Shown piece after piece: positions 25,346 to 36,400 of a stretch of DNA of 36,786 nucleotides. The notes beneath the pieces were generated by a model. It was not told the origin of the DNA. It saw only the letters and a program-made list of their open reading frames with translations, and did not search any database. How positions within the stretch are numbered: the stretch's first letter is position 1; each line of letters starts with the position of its first letter. Source of the DNA: an uncultured Woeseiaceae bacterium (GTDB lineage: Bacteria > Pseudomonadota > Gammaproteobacteria > Steroidobacterales > Woeseiaceae); assembly GCA_945788575.1 (NCBI GenBank), contig CALZMR010000002.1, forward strand, positions 1 to 36,786, read 5' to 3'. The translations under genes were made by a program, and so were the position numbers.

Positions 25346-26617
25346 ATGAGCATTACGATCAGACAACAGTTGGCGCGTGCAGTGCTTGCAGTCGCAGCGC
25401 TTGCAGCGTCGCTCACCGGCTGTGACGTGCAGACCTATGATGACGCGGTTGCGTCCATCAACAGCCCGTCGCCACCGCCACCGCCGCCGCCGCCTCCGCC
25501 GCCGCCTCCGCCACCTCCGCCGCCGCCACCCCCGCCGGCGGGCTTCGGTCCGACATTCTCAGAGATTCTGGCTGCTGTGTATACGCCGACCTGCGCGACG
25601 GCAGGGTGTCACGCCGGAGGTGCGCCCCCGGCGGCGCTCAACCTCGAGGCGGCGAACAGCTACGCGATGTTGGTAGGAATCGCGAGTTCGCAGGACATGG
25701 GCATATTACGAGTGAATCCCGGTAACCCGAATGCGAGTTATCTGATACAGAAACTTGAAGGCACAGCGGGCGGCCAGCAGATGCCGCCGACGGGCAATCC
25801 GCTCGCGCAGGCCGAGATCGACGTCATCCGCCAATGGATAACGGACGGTGCGCTCGACGATACTGCACCACCACCATCGAACCCCATCCGTGTTTCGTCG
25901 CTGTCGCCCGCGCCGGCCGCCAATCTGGACACGCCCCCAACTCAGATCGTTGCCGGTTTCGATCGCGACCTTGATGCTTCAACCGTCAATATGCTGACGT
26001 TCCTGTTTGAGGCGAGCGGGGGAGACGGCACGTTTGCAGACGGTAATGAAGTGCCGATCGACGGTACTGGCAGAATCGCTATCGGTGCCAACCCGGCAAG
26101 TGCAGTCTTCGACCTGCAGGGCGTCGCGCTGGCAGACGATACCTATCGCATCCGTCTGCTCGGTAACGGTGCCAACGTAATCATGGACCTAGATGCAAAT
26201 GCGCTCGACGGTGAGTACCTCGGCGGTTTGCCGTCAGGAAATGGTGCGGCTGGTGGTGATTTCACCGTGACCTTCACGATTACGACACCAGTCGTGCTCG
26301 GGCCGACGCTCGACCAGATCCAGGCGGTCGTTTTCACGCCCAACTGTTCCAGCTGTCATACGGGAGTCGGCGCAATACTGCCGGGTTCGATGAATCTCAG
26401 CGATGCGGATGCGAGCCTGGCGGCACTGGTCAACGTCGATAGTATCCAGGAGCCCGGCATCTTCCGCGTGGTTCCGACTGATCCCGACAACAGCTATCTG
26501 ATCGACAAGCTCGAAGGTACACATATGGTGGGCGGTATCATGCCGCCGACCGGCATGTTGCCGCAGGCGACGATCGACGAGATACGCCAATGGATCACCG
26601 ACGGCGCGCTGCGCTGA
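25346..26617 (+). CDS. Lipoprotein with two cytochrome c-like domains around an Ig-like domain and a polyproline stalk
   Basis: A 423-residue lipoprotein: the signal (about 1-26) ends in the lipobox LTGC. Residues 43-64 are 22 consecutive prolines, a rigid stalk. The first heme-binding-like domain (about 68-165) has CATAGCH, which is CX4CH rather than CXXCH. An Ig-like segment (about 180-310) follows, then a second similar domain (about 313-423) with a standard CSSCH. Each domain ends in a near-identical MPPTG...Q..ID.IRQWITDGAL motif, typical of cytochrome c-like domains where the Met is the distal ligand. The two domains are clearly duplicated. It is probably a periplasmic or surface redox protein, but one domain may not hold heme in the usual way. 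It is a single gene with a hairpin after it. Confidence 0.78.
   Translation: MSITIRQQLARAVLAVAALAASLTGCDVQTYDDAVASINSPSPPPPPPPPPPPPPPPPPPPPPPAGFGPTFSEILAAVYTPTCATAGCHAGGAPPAALNLEAANSYAMLVGIASSQDMGILRVNPGNPNASYLIQKLEGTAGGQQMPPTGNPLAQAEIDVIRQWITDGALDDTAPPPSNPIRVSSLSPAPAANLDTPPTQIVAGFDRDLDASTVNMLTFLFEASGGDGTFADGNEVPIDGTGRIAIGANPASAVFDLQGVALADDTYRIRLLGNGANVIMDLDANALDGEYLGGLPSGNGAAGGDFTVTFTITTPVVLGPTLDQIQAVVFTPNCSSCHTGVGAILPGSMNLSDADASLAALVNVDSIQEPGIFRVVPTDPDNSYLIDKLEGTHMVGGIMPPTGMLPQATIDEIRQWITDGALR
25472..25537 (+). repeat. Polyproline (CCN)22 tract
   Basis: 22 consecutive proline codons, mixed CCG, CCA, CCT and CCC, inside the lipoprotein gene. The mixed codon use argues that the tract is old or selected at protein level. 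Long proline runs need elongation factor P for efficient translation. Confidence 0.9.
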
Positions 26618-30041: not shown

Positions 30042-30455
30042 TCAGGATTCTTCGGCCGTGGGATGCGGGAGCATGCTGTGGAGCCGAGCATCGTGCGTGC
30101 TGAAGTGTTCGTTGAACCAGCGGCGCATATCCTGTGACAGGCGAGCTTCGTCGAACCAGCCGTCCGCTTCGATCTCGTCCATGATGTCGCGCAGATCGTC
30201 GAGCAAAGCCTCGTGGTCCTGCTTGTGTTCGTTGAACGCGGGATATCGGTGTTCGCGCATGTGTTTTTCCTCGAGCGCGAAATGGGACGCGATCTGCGCG
30301 TAGATCTCGCCAAGCGTCTCCAGCACGGCCGCCGTACTGGAACTCTCACGCATCGTGTCATGAAGGCTGTTGATCAGTTCGATCAGTTCGCGGTGTTCAT
30401 GGTCGACCGAAGCGATGCCGAGGCTGAACTCTTCCTGCCATTCGATCAGTTTCAT
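30042..30455 (-). CDS. Bacteriohemerythrin
   Basis: A 137-residue four-helix di-iron protein. All ligands of the diiron site are present at the canonical spacing: His21, His58, Glu62, His77, His81, His117 and Asp122. It opens with the family-typical EWQEEFSLGIASVDHEH. Hemerythrins bind O2 reversibly and several also bind or protect against NO. Its start overlaps the stop of the preceding gene (ATGA), so it is the last gene of the heme-copper operon and co-translated with it. A stand-alone cytosolic protein, possibly handing O2 or NO to, or buffering it for, the membrane enzyme; that role is inferred. Confidence 0.93.
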   Translation of the reverse strand: MKLIEWQEEFSLGIASVDHEHRELIELINSLHDTMRESSSTAAVLETLGEIYAQIASHFALEEKHMREHRYPAFNEHKQDHEALLDDLRDIMDEIEADGWFDEARLSQDMRRWFNEHFSTHDARLHSMLPHPTAEES

Positions 30456-30949
30456 CGGAAGCGAAACTCCGTGCCGTCGAACGTGATTGTAAAGTACCGC
30501 CCGGCCGCCAGCACGACGTCGTCAGAACGCACGTAGTCCCATTGCGTCGTGTCTTTGCCGTCTCTCAGCCTGACGGTGATGGAGTGAGTGCCCGGTTCGA
30601 TTTCGAATCGCTCATAGACCGAGGCCGGCCCGTCGTCCCAGAGCCCGGACGGCTGCGCGACGATGTCGATCACCGTCATGCCATCGACGTCCAGCTGAAG
30701 TCGGAGCGGTATACGCTGACGCTCGCAGTGTGCCGGTTGCCGGATGTCCGGCGGCAACGCCGCGACTTCCGCTGGCGTTAGTCTGACGCAGGGCTCGACT
30801 CGTTCTGCAGCGTGATCGAGGGACAATTTGAGCACCGCCATGTCGGCCGATCCATAGTGGTAGACCGGCGACGCCGATAGGTATCCGATTGCCACGGCGA
30901 AGACCGCATAGGCGGCGACAGCGACCGCTAAACGCAGGCCCCTAATCAT
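30452..30949 (-). CDS. Membrane-anchored periplasmic protein of unknown function
   Basis: A 165-residue protein with one N-terminal membrane helix (about 5-25, LRLAVAVAAYAVFAVAIGYL) and a beta-rich outer domain. Cysteines in EPCVRL and AHCERQ could form a disulfide. FEIEPGTHSITVRLRDGKD and AAGRYFTITFDG suggest an Ig-like or FixH-like sandwich. I do not recognise a named family. The start at 30949 overlaps the stop of the cytochrome b fusion gene by 8 bases, and the stop overlaps the hemerythrin start by 4. Its position suggests an accessory or assembly factor of the oxidase-like complex. Confidence 0.7.
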   Translation of the reverse strand: MIRGLRLAVAVAAYAVFAVAIGYLSASPVYHYGSADMAVLKLSLDHAAERVEPCVRLTPAEVAALPPDIRQPAHCERQRIPLRLQLDVDGMTVIDIVAQPSGLWDDGPASVYERFEIEPGTHSITVRLRDGKDTTQWDYVRSDDVVLAAGRYFTITFDGTEFRFR

Positions 30950-32462
30950 CTTCGCTACCGTCAACGGTTGGAAGCGATCGTCTGAATTCTGCGACCGCCG
31001 CTTGCGCGCGCGCCTCAGAGCCAGCCGGAAGCCAGCTCTCGGCCAGACGATCTGAAGGCACCCGTCTGCGCAAATACGGGTCCCGGCGCCTGGCAAGACG
31101 CTCACGCGTCCAGTCGCCGCCGAATCGGTAATAGCAATCGCCCTCGGCGCAGCCGGCGATCATTACGCCGTCCGCGATACCTCGCGACAACACGAAATCG
31201 ATAAACGGCGGCGGCAGCATGCCGACACAGGGTAGCGAAACGACGGCGGTCTCCGTGTCCGTAGCCGGAACCGCGGCCGTTTGCCGGCAGGCGAACACCA
31301 TCAGGCGCTGATTACCGGTTAGTTGCTGTCCAAGCTGCAGCACTTCGTCGCGCAGCTCCGAGATGTCGTGGTTCGGCAGCTGGATGCCCGGCTCGATCGG
31401 CTTCGCCCGCCGAAACGGCGTCGCCGTCGGGCATGCGCCTGCGCAGATGCCGCAACTCACGCACAGGCCGTCGTTCACGACGGCCTCGGTCTCGAAGGAC
31501 TTTCCGTCGCTGCGAGGCGCGAGCCGGATCGCGCTGTACGGGCAATCATCGACGCAGCGCCCGCAGCCGTTGCAGTTCTCGAGGCTTACGATGGCCGCCG
31601 GCCTGGGCGCTTGTGGCGGCATCCAGGGCAGCAGCATGAGCAGCAGAGCTCCACCGGCGACGATCACCCAAAGCCAGCCGCCAGGGATCACCTCGAGCAG
31701 CGGATACAGTGCGAGGTAGTACCAGTCCAGTCCCACAGTTACCGGTACGACGTCGAGGTCCGCCGGCCCCTGGCTGGTGGCGGGATAGACGATGGAGAGC
31801 AGTAGCGTCGCGAGTCCCGTACCAATCATCAGATTTCGCGTGGGATTCACGCGGGCTGCCGCATGCCGTTGAACGTGTACCCACATCAGCAGCAGCATAA
31901 ATAGCGGCACGAATATATGAATGAAGACCATCAGCGTGAAGAAACGGCCACCGAGCGTCGTACTGTTGAAAAAGTTGTTGGCGATAGGTTCGGAAAAGAC
32001 CGGCAGGGCATCCAGCCATTCACTCGTACTCACTGCAATGTACTGCGCAAGTTTGTCCCATACGAGCCAGTAACCGCTGATTCCGCAGATGTAGATGAAT
32101 GCCAATAATGGAACACCGGTGAGCCACGCGAAAAAGAGCTTGCCGCGGAAGCGATCCAGCGAATACTCGCGCAGCAGGTGTATCACTGCCACGACCACGA
32201 GTGCGTCCGACGTGTAACGGTGCAGGCTTCTCATGATGCCAGCGGCATACCACTGCTCGTTGGTCATGTATTCGACTGACGCGTAGGCATCGACGATGCC
32301 TGTATCGAAGAAGATATACAGGTAGACGCCGCTCGCGGCACAGATCCAATAGAAGAACCAGCCGAGTGCGCCGAGGTTTGTGATGGGATTGTCGCGCCGG
32401 CCGAAGCCCACGTCGAACACGGCCTCGGCACGCTCGAATACTCGCCGGAGCAGCACTTTCAC
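30942..32462 (-). CDS. Cytochrome b / two-[4Fe-4S] ferredoxin / MvhD-like fusion
   Basis: A 506-residue multidomain redox protein. Residues 30-280 are a cytochrome b-type membrane domain with His81/His95 and His182/His196, both pairs 14 residues apart as in cytochrome b6 bis-heme sites. Residues 296-346 hold two CxxCxxCxxxCP clusters (Cys297/300/303/307 and Cys334/337/340/344) for two [4Fe-4S] centres. Residues 385-480 resemble MvhD (hydrogenase iron-sulfur subunit), with Cys392, Cys412, Cys438 and Cys443 in AGCAEGDCYYRFGG. GTG 32462 was chosen: it overlaps the SCO1 stop (GTGA) and has GGAAG 8 bases upstream. ATG 32477, five codons earlier, lacks a ribosome site. This fusion in a heme-copper operon is unusual; it may move electrons between quinol and a cytosolic Fe-S partner. 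Confidence 0.85.
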   Translation of the reverse strand: MKVLLRRVFERAEAVFDVGFGRRDNPITNLGALGWFFYWICAASGVYLYIFFDTGIVDAYASVEYMTNEQWYAAGIMRSLHRYTSDALVVVAVIHLLREYSLDRFRGKLFFAWLTGVPLLAFIYICGISGYWLVWDKLAQYIAVSTSEWLDALPVFSEPIANNFFNSTTLGGRFFTLMVFIHIFVPLFMLLLMWVHVQRHAAARVNPTRNLMIGTGLATLLLSIVYPATSQGPADLDVVPVTVGLDWYYLALYPLLEVIPGGWLWVIVAGGALLLMLLPWMPPQAPRPAAIVSLENCNGCGRCVDDCPYSAIRLAPRSDGKSFETEAVVNDGLCVSCGICAGACPTATPFRRAKPIEPGIQLPNHDISELRDEVLQLGQQLTGNQRLMVFACRQTAAVPATDTETAVVSLPCVGMLPPPFIDFVLSRGIADGVMIAGCAEGDCYYRFGGDWTRERLARRRDPYLRRRVPSDRLAESWLPAGSEARAQAAVAEFRRSLPTVDGSEDD

Positions 32463-33226
32463 CGAGCGTGCTTCCATTCGCGCACGATAAATATGGCGAC
32501 TGCCCCCAGGGAAAGAATACCGACGAACAGCGTCATCAGAATCGAATAATCGAAGCGATAGCGATCGGAGTTCGGATCGTACACCGTACAGAACAGCCGG
32601 AACGTGTCCACCCAATGATCGATCAGACCTGCCTCTCCTCGCGTGTCGAACACCAGTTCCTTCAGTGGCTCGACGAGGGCCTGCGTTTCGATGTCGACAC
32701 CGTAGACCTGCCGATAGATGATGCCGTCGGCATCGATGATCGTCGTCTGGGCCAGATGATCGAAGCCCTTGGCGCTTGCGTAGAAACTGAATCCGAGCGC
32801 GTCACTGACGGCGTCGATCGACGGTCCGTCCCCTGCCAGAAAGATCCAGTTGTCGGCGTTGACGCCTTGCTGACGGGCATATTGCCGCATGCGATCCGGC
32901 GTATCGACCTGCCAGTCGAAGCCGATCGTAACTACGTTGAAGGCGTCCTCACCCAGTGCGTCCAGCCCGATGTCGACCGTGTCCGCAAGGTTGCGAGTAA
33001 TGAGCGGGCAGATGTGATGGCAGCTCGTGTAGATCATGCTCACGACAAGCGGCTTGCCGCGCAGACTGGACAGATCGAATGGCTGGCCGTCGATATCGCG
33101 GAATACATACTCCCCGAATTCCCGGCCGATCGCGGCCTGACTACTCGATAGTGCTTCGTCGCGATCGTACGCCGCGCCATCCGCGGCGACCGTGAGAAAA
33201 ATCAACAAGCCCGTGGCTAGCGCCAT
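32459..33226 (-). CDS. SCO1/SenC family copper chaperone
   Basis: A 255-residue protein. A signal peptide (about 1-19) leads to a thioredoxin-fold SCO domain with the copper-binding CxxxC at Cys69 and Cys73 (MIYTSCHHICPL) and His157 in FDHLAQTT. A C-terminal membrane helix (about 230-250, LMTLFVGILSLGAVAIFIV) is unusual for SCO1 proteins, which usually have only an N-terminal anchor. It probably loads copper into the CuA site of the adjacent subunit II. The start at 33226 is 7 bases after the heme O synthase stop. Longer frames with a 341-residue product run into the upstream gene and are not credible. Confidence 0.88.
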   Translation of the reverse strand: MALATGLLIFLTVAADGAAYDRDEALSSSQAAIGREFGEYVFRDIDGQPFDLSSLRGKPLVVSMIYTSCHHICPLITRNLADTVDIGLDALGEDAFNVVTIGFDWQVDTPDRMRQYARQQGVNADNWIFLAGDGPSIDAVSDALGFSFYASAKGFDHLAQTTIIDADGIIYRQVYGVDIETQALVEPLKELVFDTRGEAGLIDHWVDTFRLFCTVYDPNSDRYRFDYSILMTLFVGILSLGAVAIFIVREWKHAR

Positions 33227-33233
33227 TGTCGGT

Positions 33234-34100
33234 TCAACCGAGTATGAGCCGATCGAGCATTGCGGCGCTGAGAAGTACCCCGAGCTGCACGATCGATGCG
33301 GCGAAGGCGCGCCAAGCCTGAGCTGTTTCCGGCTTCGCGGCGAGCCGCAGACAGGCAACGATGAAGAAGCCGCCGCCAAGGACTGCGCCGACGAGATAGA
33401 TGATACCCATGCCGAACATGGCTGGTAGCAGCGATAGCCCGACCATCGCGACGGCATGCGCGAGAATCGTCCTGGCCGTAGCACGGCCGCCGATTACGAC
33501 AGGCAGCATCGGAATGCCGGCAGCGCGGTAATCATCGCGGCAGGCGAGGGCAAGCGCCCAGAAGTGGGGCGGCGTCCAAAGAAAAAGAACGCCGGCCAGG
33601 ATCAGGGGTGCAGGGCCCATTCCGTCGCCGGCAGCGGCCGCACCGGCGAGTACCGCGAAGCTGCCGGCAAGCCCGCCGATCACGATGTTCATCCAGGTGC
33701 GACGCTTGAGCCATACGGTGTAGACCACGCCGTAGGTGAAAGCGCCGAGGAATACGTATAAGGCGGCGAGCCAGTTCGTCGCGAAAGCCGCCAGGACGAC
33801 GGCCATTGTCAGCGCCAGCAGTATCGCGGCGAGCCACGGCCAGTCGGCTTCGAATCGCCCCGTGACGAACGGTCGCCCGGCGGTTCGCCGCATTCTCCCG
33901 TCGAGATCGCGTTCGTAGTATTGATTGAATGCGCCTGCGGCGGAAGATGCGACCAAGGTCGCGAAACCCAGCGCGACAATCTGCCATGCCGACAGCGGAT
34001 GTTCGGAGCTAACCGCGACACCCGCGAATGCACAGGCCATGATCAGGAATCCGAGGCGGACCTTAGCAGTCTGGTACAGGAGTAGCAGCGTGGCAGCCAT
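33234..34100 (-). CDS. cyoE/ctaB: Protoheme IX farnesyltransferase (heme O synthase)
   Basis: A 288-residue membrane enzyme with about nine hydrophobic helices. The prenyl-diphosphate site is in NQYYERDLDGRMRRTAGRP (about 58-76), the first Asp-rich motif of UbiA-type prenyltransferases. The second motif is near DDYRAAGIPMLP (about 188-199). It adds a farnesyl group to heme B to make heme O for heme-copper enzymes. No heme A synthase is present in the window, so the product could be heme O or, with a distant CtaA, heme A. AGGAAACG just before the ATG is a good ribosome site. It lies between subunit I and SCO1. Confidence 0.93.
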   Translation of the reverse strand: MAATLLLLYQTAKVRLGFLIMACAFAGVAVSSEHPLSAWQIVALGFATLVASSAAGAFNQYYERDLDGRMRRTAGRPFVTGRFEADWPWLAAILLALTMAVVLAAFATNWLAALYVFLGAFTYGVVYTVWLKRRTWMNIVIGGLAGSFAVLAGAAAAGDGMGPAPLILAGVLFLWTPPHFWALALACRDDYRAAGIPMLPVVIGGRATARTILAHAVAMVGLSLLPAMFGMGIIYLVGAVLGGGFFIVACLRLAAKPETAQAWRAFAASIVQLGVLLSAAMLDRLILG

Positions 34101-34158: not shown

Positions 34159-35853
34159 TTAGCTCAGTGGCCAGACTTCGGACAGGTACTTCCAGTTGAC
34201 GAAGTAATAGAGCACGAAGGCGAGGAAGAATATGGCAACCAGCATCGTCGTGCCGGGGATTCGCAAGGTCTTCGCGCTGCCGTGTTCCGCGACGACCGCT
34301 GCCGCCGGCGGTACTTCCGGGTAGCTCGGCTTCTCGTCCGGCGCGAGCTTCCGACCGAAGAAGACCGACTTCACGACGACCACGACGTACATTACGCCTC
34401 CGACTGCCGCGAGCACTGCGAATAGACCGTTGAGGCCCATCATTAACTCAGCTGCCGACGGATAGTCGAACGGCAAGATCGCATCGGCGAACTTCATATC
34501 CCAGTGTCGCCTCGATACGCCGAGCGTACCGGCACCCATCATGAACAGTGAGATGCCGGCGACACCGATGCCGAAGACGTAGGGCTGCCATCGCGCCACC
34601 CCCTGCATGGCGAGTTCGCGTCTGAATATCAGCGGTATGAGCAGATAGGTGATGGCCATGAAAGCGAGCGTGGTACCGGCTACGACCGTCCCATGGAAAT
34701 GGCCCGGCACGTATAGCGTGTTGTGCATGATCAGGTTGATCTGTTCCGTGCCCATGACGACGCCGGAAATACCGCCGATGAAACCGAAGAATACGAGCGA
34801 CATGAACATTCCCGAGAATGCCGGATTTCCCCAGGGCGCTTTGCGAAGCCACTCGAACATGCCCTTGGTCAGCCCGCGGCTACGCTGGGCCGCCTCGATC
34901 GATCCCGGGACAGTGAGCCCGTGAACCATGCTGCCGAGTACCGCCAGATACATCGCGTAGCTGGTATTGAAGATCTTCCATTCGGGACTGAATCCGGGCT
35001 CTACGAGCATGTGGTGCGCGCTGGCGAGTTGCAGGAACAGGATGTACATCAGAAACGCCATGCGGCTGACTTTCTCAGACAGTGGCCGGGCGCCAAAGAC
35101 CATCGCGGCGATTGCATACCATACGGCGACATGTGCGGAGACGTTTATCTGTTGCGACGAGTGGCCCATCGCCCACCAGATCGTCTTGTAGAGAATAGGA
35201 TCGATGTGCGCGACGAGACCGACCGACCACAGCAGTGTCGGAATCAGGATGATCGCTCCGGAGGCGATCGTGAAAACGGCGATGATCGCCGCCGTCAATG
35301 CACCGAAAGTGACGAGCGGAATCGAGCCTTCATAAGTTCGTTCCTGACGGGCGACGACAAGCGTGCCGAAGAACACGAAGCAACCGATCAGTGCGCCCAC
35401 CGCGAACAGAATGATGCCCAGATAGAATGTTGGTTCCGCCTTTAGCGGCACATAGGACGTGAACATCACGCTCGACTGGCCAAGCAGCACCGTGACGTTC
35501 GTAATCAGCGCGCCCGAGAGCATCAGGCCAAAGCCGGCCCACGCCCATCTTGGAGTTGCGATTCGGCAGCCGAGAAGTACTGCGGACGCAAAGTACAGCA
35601 CGGCCATCTCGAAGAAGATGATCCAGACGAGTAGCACGTCAAGCCCGTGCGCGGTCAACGCGAGATAGAACCAATCTGCTGGCAGGAAATGCACCGCCGG
35701 CCAGCGCGTCAGCGCCACCAGCAGCCCGAACAGTCCACCGATCGCAAGGAACACGACAGCGGCGACAGCGTTCGCCTTGATGAGTCTTTCGGCAGCAAGG
35801 TTGACTTTGAGGCCGGTCGTCGGACAGGTACGGAATTCGGCGGTCTTACTCAT
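34159..35853 (-). CDS. Heme-copper oxidoreductase subunit I without active-site tyrosine; candidate NO reductase
   Basis: A 564-residue protein with about 12-14 membrane helices. All six metal-ligand histidines are present: His69 (LTAHGLD) and His387 for the low-spin heme, His385 for the high-spin heme (VPGHFHGT), and His231, His280 and His281 (GHSSQQ and SAHHM) for the copper. In A- and B-type oxygen reductases the residue four after the helix VI His is the cross-linked Tyr (GHPEVY); here it is Gln235. The helix VII Tyr of cbb3 oxidases, six before the HH pair, is Leu274. Lack of both points to a nitric oxide reductase-type heme-copper enzyme of the non-canonical families; I cannot assign the exact family without alignment. 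The start 35853 has GGGAGGAG 6 bases upstream, overlapping the subunit II stop by 8 bases. Confidence 0.85.
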   Translation of the reverse strand: MSKTAEFRTCPTTGLKVNLAAERLIKANAVAAVVFLAIGGLFGLLVALTRWPAVHFLPADWFYLALTAHGLDVLLVWIIFFEMAVLYFASAVLLGCRIATPRWAWAGFGLMLSGALITNVTVLLGQSSVMFTSYVPLKAEPTFYLGIILFAVGALIGCFVFFGTLVVARQERTYEGSIPLVTFGALTAAIIAVFTIASGAIILIPTLLWSVGLVAHIDPILYKTIWWAMGHSSQQINVSAHVAVWYAIAAMVFGARPLSEKVSRMAFLMYILFLQLASAHHMLVEPGFSPEWKIFNTSYAMYLAVLGSMVHGLTVPGSIEAAQRSRGLTKGMFEWLRKAPWGNPAFSGMFMSLVFFGFIGGISGVVMGTEQINLIMHNTLYVPGHFHGTVVAGTTLAFMAITYLLIPLIFRRELAMQGVARWQPYVFGIGVAGISLFMMGAGTLGVSRRHWDMKFADAILPFDYPSAAELMMGLNGLFAVLAAVGGVMYVVVVVKSVFFGRKLAPDEKPSYPEVPPAAAVVAEHGSAKTLRIPGTTMLVAIFFLAFVLYYFVNWKYLSEVWPLS

Positions 35854-36400
35854 CGCTCTGCTCCTCCCGGTCGACGACATAGATCTTGCCCACCATCAAG
35901 TGGTGGCCAAGGCCGCAGAACTCGTTGCAGACGACTCCGTATTCTCCGACCTGGTCCGGACGGATGGTCATGACCATTTCATAGTCTGGATGCACCTGAA
36001 CATTGATGTTTACGGGTTGCAGCGAGAAACCATGCTGCACGTCGAGGGACGACAGATGCAGACGGTAGGTCTGGTCCTTCTCGAGTTCGAGGATCGGCGA
36101 CCATTGGTATAGGCGGGCCATCATGTAAACGTCGCTGCCCGCCGGCGGGTGCACGACCGGGAAGCCGCTTTCGTCACGGACCGTGTGTTCGTCGATCATC
36201 GCCTGCGTTCGCTCGGCGAAGACTTCGGCCTTGATCTGATAGGCCTCGCTCGACAGGTTCTGTTCGCCCGCACCGTGCCAGTAGATCATCATGAAGAACA
36301 TGACGAGACCCCAGGTGAATGCGATCACGATCCAGATCAATTCCACGCGCGCGATTGGTTCTTTCCACCAAATGCGCTCACTCGGCGGTGTGATGGCCAT
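35846..36400 (-). CDS. CuA-type subunit II of the heme-copper enzyme
   Basis: A 184-residue protein with one N-terminal membrane helix (about 20-42) and a cupredoxin domain. The full CuA set is present: His123 (DVQHGFS), and Cys158, Glu160, Cys162, His166 and Met169 in CNEFCGLGHHLM. Electrons therefore enter from a periplasmic one-electron donor such as cytochrome c or a blue copper protein. It is shorter than usual subunit II proteins, with a single membrane span and no c-type heme, as in B-type enzymes. AGGGGAGGT lies 7 bases before the ATG. It overlaps subunit I by 8 bases and follows a small membrane-protein gene by 14 bases. Confidence 0.93.
   Translation of the reverse strand: MAITPPSERIWWKEPIARVELIWIVIAFTWGLVMFFMMIYWHGAGEQNLSSEAYQIKAEVFAERTQAMIDEHTVRDESGFPVVHPPAGSDVYMMARLYQWSPILELEKDQTYRLHLSSLDVQHGFSLQPVNINVQVHPDYEMVMTIRPDQVGEYGVVCNEFCGLGHHLMVGKIYVVDREEQSDE

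Follow-up and report, generated by a model that had tools for sequence, protein, structure and literature searches.

The question raised by this locus is which reaction is catalysed by a heme-copper subunit I that keeps its metal-binding histidines and lacks the active-site tyrosine at both the helix-VI site and the cbb3-type site on helix VII. The window, that is, the whole stretch of 36,786 nucleotides from an uncultured Woeseiaceae bacterium that was analysed, contains one such gene, which a first-pass annotation had put forward as a candidate NO reductase of non-canonical type. We propose that the enzyme is, with high probability, an eNOR, a B-family-related enzyme in which the tyrosine is replaced by glutamine and which is predicted to reduce NO. 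According to the available text of PMC8756737, eNOR is marked by Gln at the helix-VI Tyr site, where sNOR has Asn, gNOR Asp and c/qNOR Glu, it has one proton channel, and putative members are known from Alpha-, Beta-, Gamma- and Deltaproteobacteria. The family was proposed in 2008 and has been characterised since (available parts of PMC8756737, PMC11388526, PMC8879329); biochemical characterisation is stated in the part of PMC11388526 at hand, the ba3-a1 subtype of Alphaproteobacteria is identified with eNOR, and credited with NO reductase activity, in the accessible portion of PMC8879329, and a Tyr-less, SCO-linked enzyme of this kind was already described in 2019 (excerpt of PMC6431628). NO reduction by an enzyme with a CuA subunit is thus the best reading, as first suggested, but since the glutamine is the published mark of a characterised family, the window protein is not a new candidate type: it adds a further eNOR to an already described type of NO reductase.

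The subunit I gene sits on the minus strand; the interval 34159-35853, as originally given, has stop codons on the plus strand. The open reading frame runs from 35880 to 34159 on the minus strand (573 amino acids) and is assigned to COX1 by Pfam (PF00115, E 2.5e-65). An internal in-frame ATG at 35853 is probably the start, judged from relatives, most of whose alignments begin at residue 5-16, and this start would give an 8-base overlap of subunit I with the end of subunit II. Residues are numbered here from 35880, whereas the first-pass annotation counted from the ATG at 35853, so that its numbers are ours minus 9. In its numbering, all six metal-binding histidines (His69, His231, His280, His281, His385 and His387) are there in the window protein, the GHSSQQ motif places Gln235 (our Gln244) four residues after His231 at the helix-VI Tyr site, and Leu274 (our Leu283) stands six before His280 at the cbb3-type helix-VII site, all as it had reported.

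These features extend across relatives. A genome scan gave at least 453 relatives, of which we used the best 80, with 70-89% identity and titles that are mostly Gamma- or Alphaproteobacteria, several of them Woeseiaceae. Together with the window and three plasmid loci they make up 84 Gln-family rows; loci L004 and L009 duplicate the window, and no subunit I row came from L003, L005, L010, L011 and L092. The plasmid matches come from Defluviimonas (69%), Thermus (45%) and Thermomicrobium (49% over 80% of length), all with the Gln-Gln motif, and are annotated as cytochrome c oxidase. With the best 80 of at least 453 relatives included, Gln-Gln stands three and four residues after the helix-VI histidine in 84/84 rows, and the motif is therefore no sequencing accident; Tyr fills the same site in 15/15 B-type reference rows, so that the window enzyme has Gln where the B family has its helix-VI His-Tyr cofactor. 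The cbb3 (C-family) Tyr, which we take to precede the helix-VII HH pair by six residues, is also replaced, by Leu283, with Leu in 82/84 and Ile in 2/84 of the rows from the same best 80 of at least 453. Among these rows five of the six histidines are present in 84/84 and the sixth in 83/84, where one Thermus row has Lys instead, and Gln243, Gln244, Asn246, Tyr279 and His320 occur in 84/84 (best 80 of at least 453 included) versus 0/15 of the B-type rows. In four of four copies read from Thermus thermophilus plasmids (L007, L120, L121 and L122), Lys replaces the second histidine of HxH on helix X, the presumed low-spin heme ligand.

Subunit I belongs to a cluster whose genes are all on the minus strand, in the order subunit II, subunit I, CyoE, SCO/SenC, cytochrome b fusion, small protein and bacteriohemerythrin. 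Subunit II (35846..36400), encoded upstream and adjacent, carries a CuA domain (TIGR02866, E 5e-14, under the curated cut-off) with the ligand pattern His123, Cys158, Cys162, His166 and Met169, each found in 84/84 rows (best 80 of at least 453 included), and this complete ligand set argues for a soluble electron donor, as had been proposed at first. On the other side of subunit I lie the heme O synthase CyoE/CtaB (33234..34100, TIGR01473 above cut-off), an SCO1/SenC copper chaperone-like protein (32459..33484, PF02630, E 1.2e-16) whose reading frame probably starts too far upstream, a fusion of cytochrome b with a two-[4Fe-4S] ferredoxin and FlpD/MvhD (30942..32477; PF00033, PF12838 and PF02662), with an internal ATG at 32477 chosen by us as its start, a small protein with an N-terminal helix and a beta-sandwich (30452..30949, no family found) and bacteriohemerythrin (30042..30455, NF033749 above cut-off). 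The gene order subunit II, subunit I, SenC first described for this locus holds insofar as all three are clustered, but the CyoE gene lies between subunit I and SCO/SenC. Where the locus extends for at least 5 kb beyond subunit I on the downstream side, as in 62 out of the best 80 of at least 453, SCO, the fusion and the small protein each occur in 62/62, hemerythrin in 60/62 and CyoE in 45/62, CyoE not being found by blastp in 17/62. Elsewhere in the window, an open reading frame at 25346-26617 on the plus strand encodes a stretch of over 20 prolines together with a single CxxCH motif (NCSSCHTG).

We know of no activity for any close relative of the window enzyme. In the model that we infer for the activity, donor and proton coupling of the window protein, a periplasmic donor, either a cytochrome c or a cupredoxin, would pass electrons to CuA in subunit II, from where they would travel to the low-spin heme and on to the heme/CuB site, and the reaction would be 2 NO + 2 H+ + 2 e- -> N2O + H2O. 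Protons would be drawn from the cytoplasmic side by way of a changed K-channel, which would probably make the reaction electrogenic. The K-channel positions Tyr255 and Ser317 of subunit I and Glu20 of subunit II are kept in 84/84 rows (best 80 of at least 453 included) and presumably correspond to Tyr248, Ser309 and Glu15(II) of ba3, whereas Val251 (83/84) and His320 (84/84, same rows) replace the B-type K-channel Tyr and Thr, which we take to be Tyr244 and Thr312 of ba3. Glu20 is likely to lie at the channel entrance, Tyr279 may also be on the proton path, and the combination of kept and altered residues makes cytoplasmic proton uptake through the changed channel plausible. The NO reductase activity of eNOR and its single proton channel are taken from the published papers. 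In the host cell, the NO made by NirS would be removed by eNOR.

The host genome (93% complete) contains one full nirS, where controls matched in 2/14. Searches of this genome gave no NirK match, NosZ matches only under cut-off at CuA domains, and no qNOR/cNOR match at E 1e-12 with a qNOR protein query. It has five COX1 matches, which their motifs assign to an A-type enzyme (contig C20), an A-type enzyme interrupted by the contig end (C87), a fragment of A-type (C127), a cbb3-like enzyme (C13) and the eNOR of the window; C87 and C127 cover the same profile region with different letters and hence are not simply halves of one gene. The eNOR is probably the main enzyme for the conversion of NO to N2O in this bacterium. 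The NirS of the same genome (L092:7792-9969, contig C13) has two CxxCH motifs before its D1 domain (at about 75 and 230), as have those of L118, L020, L014 and L015. By Pfam, the L092 and L118 proteins have two c-type domains, a domain count like that of C1-C2-NirS, an arrangement that a section heading in the available text of PMC8756737 calls unique to Chloroflexi.

This pairing of nirS and eNOR recurs in 107 genomes of the host's family, a sample that overlaps with the 80 named-genome loci (L014 and L119, for example), so that the two sets are not independent. Strong nirS, defined by E below 1e-40, is present in 56/107 (any PF02239 match, 64/107) and eNOR in 44/107; 38 genomes have both, 6 eNOR only, 18 nirS only and 45 neither. 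The association (p = 1.9e-9) and the avoidance of c/qNOR by eNOR (p = 2.3e-4) are nominal values, as the genomes are related. Classical NOR was found in 1/38 genomes with eNOR and nirS (G034) versus 8/18 with nirS and no eNOR, and the 56 nirS genomes accordingly divide into 37 with eNOR only, 1 with both, 8 with c/qNOR only and 10 with neither, of which three have an eNOR cluster broken off by a contig end and seven gave no NOR of either type in these searches. Because the c/qNOR DNA motif alone found 5/107 genomes, a qNOR protein query was used, which at E 1e-12 gave a c/qNOR-like protein in 9/107. The qNOR-like matches are full in five genomes, and G034, G071, G072 and G005, with matches only at E 1e-25 to 1e-34, were taken as cNOR-like; G072 also has the c/qNOR motif and G071 gives COX1 only by Pfam. 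Among the named-genome loci, qNOR-like reading frames (31-37% to a family qNOR) share their loci with eNOR clusters at L033:6281-8767, L080:3798-6449 and L084:1-954. NirK gave matches in 44/107 family genomes, over cut-off only in G061 and as a long partial match in G057.

Physical linkage is seen in part of these genomes. Of the 38 with both genes, 10 have nirS 4.1-5.4 kb from eNOR, one has the two on a shared contig 243 kb apart, and 27, the host genome among them, have them on different contigs. A NirS match of more than 40% identity is held by 18 of the best 80 of at least 453 named-genome loci, which overlap with the 10 genomes with close nirS. The Thermus relative has a nitrite reductase and an Rrf2 regulator nearby, and a published paper, in the part available, places an eNOR of Ardenticatena in an operon with NirK. 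The distribution also bears on the role of the enzyme in vivo, as eNOR might serve mainly in NO detoxification instead of energy conservation. This role, which is compatible with the enzyme being an eNOR, would suit the hemerythrin in the cluster, the altered K-channel residues and the six of 44 eNOR genomes without strong nirS, one of which (G045) has a nirS fragment at a contig end; the nirS pairing in 38/44 and the remaining K-channel positions, which are kept, speak against it and leave it rather unlikely.

That the enzyme is an eNOR has to be weighed against oxygen reduction, on which the two checks proposed in the first-pass annotation, a tree and a look for a displaced tyrosine, bear in part. 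The maximum-likelihood tree holds 44 rows, with 26 of the 84 Gln rows and 15 B-type rows, and was built without named sNOR sequences and without the characterised Rhodothermus eNOR. All 26 Gln rows share a single branch (support 99/96), where those of Thermus and Thermomicrobium cluster with the window, but the 15 B-type rows do not form one clade: 10 are placed as neighbours of the Gln branch and the other 5 outside it, with weak support (84/67), so that the Gln clade may have arisen from within the B family. The tree programme flagged long branches for L007 with L008, L102 and L097, and for L106, at 7.0 changes per site; the last, which the tree places adjacent to the Gln clade, was excluded from the B-type count. 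In the alignment, to which the second check was confined, Tyr279 (270 in the earlier numbering) is invariant in the Gln rows; it precedes the HH pair by ten residues and is four residues, roughly one helical turn, away from the position of the cbb3 Tyr. A B-family O2 reductase that has no His-Tyr cofactor, or a displaced tyrosine in the form of Tyr279, would fit the presence of this residue in 84/84 rows (best 80 of at least 453 included) and 0/15 B-type rows, the closest solved structures, which are B-type ba3 oxidases (E about 1e-44), and the placement of the clade next to some of the B-type rows. We set this explanation aside on the Gln residue and the separate clade, and the association with nirS, the rarity alongside cNOR/qNOR and the published assignment of the eNOR family to the NO reductases (available parts of PMC8756737, PMC11388526 and PMC8879329) further make it improbable. 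Least of all do we expect an sNOR of the NorSY-SenC type of ammonia oxidisers, a likeness first drawn from the clustering of CuA subunit II, subunit I and SCO, which fails on the residue itself, Asn in sNOR (PMC8756737, available text) against Gln in 84/84 (best 80 of at least 453 included). The Gln signature, the one Gln clade and the published family assignment are the grounds on which the window enzyme is filed as eNOR.

Other COX1-like proteins occur near this clade or its gene clusters. L106, from an Azospirillum plasmid, has the aberrant metal-site motif HNLHYL on its long branch beside the eNOR clade. Near some eNOR clusters there is a degenerate COX1-like protein with a GGGH motif and without the helix-VII HH and the helix-X HNT (L111:1421-2911; L112; L114; L118:12098-13507; L054:9592-11016; L070:4523-5953), which in L118 adjoins nirS on the same strand.

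The less explored and more interesting part of the cluster is the cytochrome b fusion with its small protein. In the 52 rows with usable start and length, from 82 inspected, His86, His100, His187 and His201 of the fusion are invariant (52/52) and spaced as in cytochrome b, where four His hold two b hemes, and 11 of 12 cysteines are found in 52/52 and Cys448 in 51/52, eight for two [4Fe-4S] clusters and four in the FlpD part. Profile matches are to cytochrome b6 and MvhD chains, and the structure model has a pLDDT of 83.8. In a phylum sample of 398 genomes, with at most three candidates scored per genome, the fusion is present in 34, eNOR in 30 and both in 29, on different contigs in 12 of the 29; five genomes have the fusion only and one eNOR only. 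The 107 family genomes give 47, 44 and 43, respectively, and in all four with the fusion only, the cluster is truncated by a contig end. The small protein has no Pfam match at E up to 1, its model (pLDDT 95.8) consists of one helix, likely a membrane anchor at the N-terminus, and a beta-sandwich, and Cys54 and Cys75 are invariant (57/57). A fold search returned nothing at E of 0.001 or below, VIA-align Z scores reaching 8.9 with unrelated beta-sandwiches, and consequently allows no function to be assigned. The fusion and the small protein share one reading frame in L031 (13433-15562), L033 (13516-15600), L077 and L112 (1056-3335), which may be a natural fusion or a MAG contig effect.

We tentatively raise the possibility that proteobacterial eNOR has a dedicated membrane partner, consisting of the fusion and the small protein, which would connect a cytoplasmic donor or the quinone pool with the periplasm and either feed eNOR or reduce copper/SCO during assembly. 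The fusion could supply eNOR with electrons at the periplasmic side or could serve copper-site assembly, for which CcoG/FixGH provide the analogy in cbb3. A literature search found no paper linking NOR, hemerythrin, cytochrome b, ba3 and SCO, the 2024 PNAS paper on eNOR being outside its reach. If true, this would be a new respiratory module, in which a membrane-bound conduit of MvhD type is tied to NO reduction. The partner provides a testable lead on the electron or copper supply of eNOR.

The assignment matters for surveys of denitrification. Woeseiaceae are described, in the available text of a published paper, as having truncated denitrification with NirS/NirK and/or NorBC and N2O release from sediments, and eNOR genes are frequently labelled cytochrome c oxidase (PMC8756737, available text), so that surveys restricted to cNOR/qNOR count such bacteria as NO producers without an NO sink. 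Of the family's nirS genomes, 37/56 have eNOR without a detected classical NOR.

The window enzyme can finally be compared with the known systems. cNOR and qNOR, which have no CuA, share its presumed reaction, and the nirS genomes of the family mostly carry one kind or the other. They differ at the helix-VI site, where they have Glu (PMC8756737, text as available) and the window enzyme Gln. The B-family ba3 oxygen reductases share sequence kinship and some K-channel positions, but have Tyr at the site in all the B-type rows where the window enzyme has Gln in a clade of its own. The sNOR encoded by norSY-senC is similarly a two-subunit enzyme with a cupredoxin subunit and an SCO/SenC gene, yet differs in its Asn (same source and limit). 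No tested feature separates the window enzyme from eNOR (ba3-a1 in Alphaproteobacteria), with which it shares Gln at the Tyr site, the six His, a CuA subunit II and the link to nitrite reductase; beyond the eNOR subunits, the window cluster holds the cytochrome b/ferredoxin/FlpD fusion, the small beta-sandwich protein and the hemerythrin.
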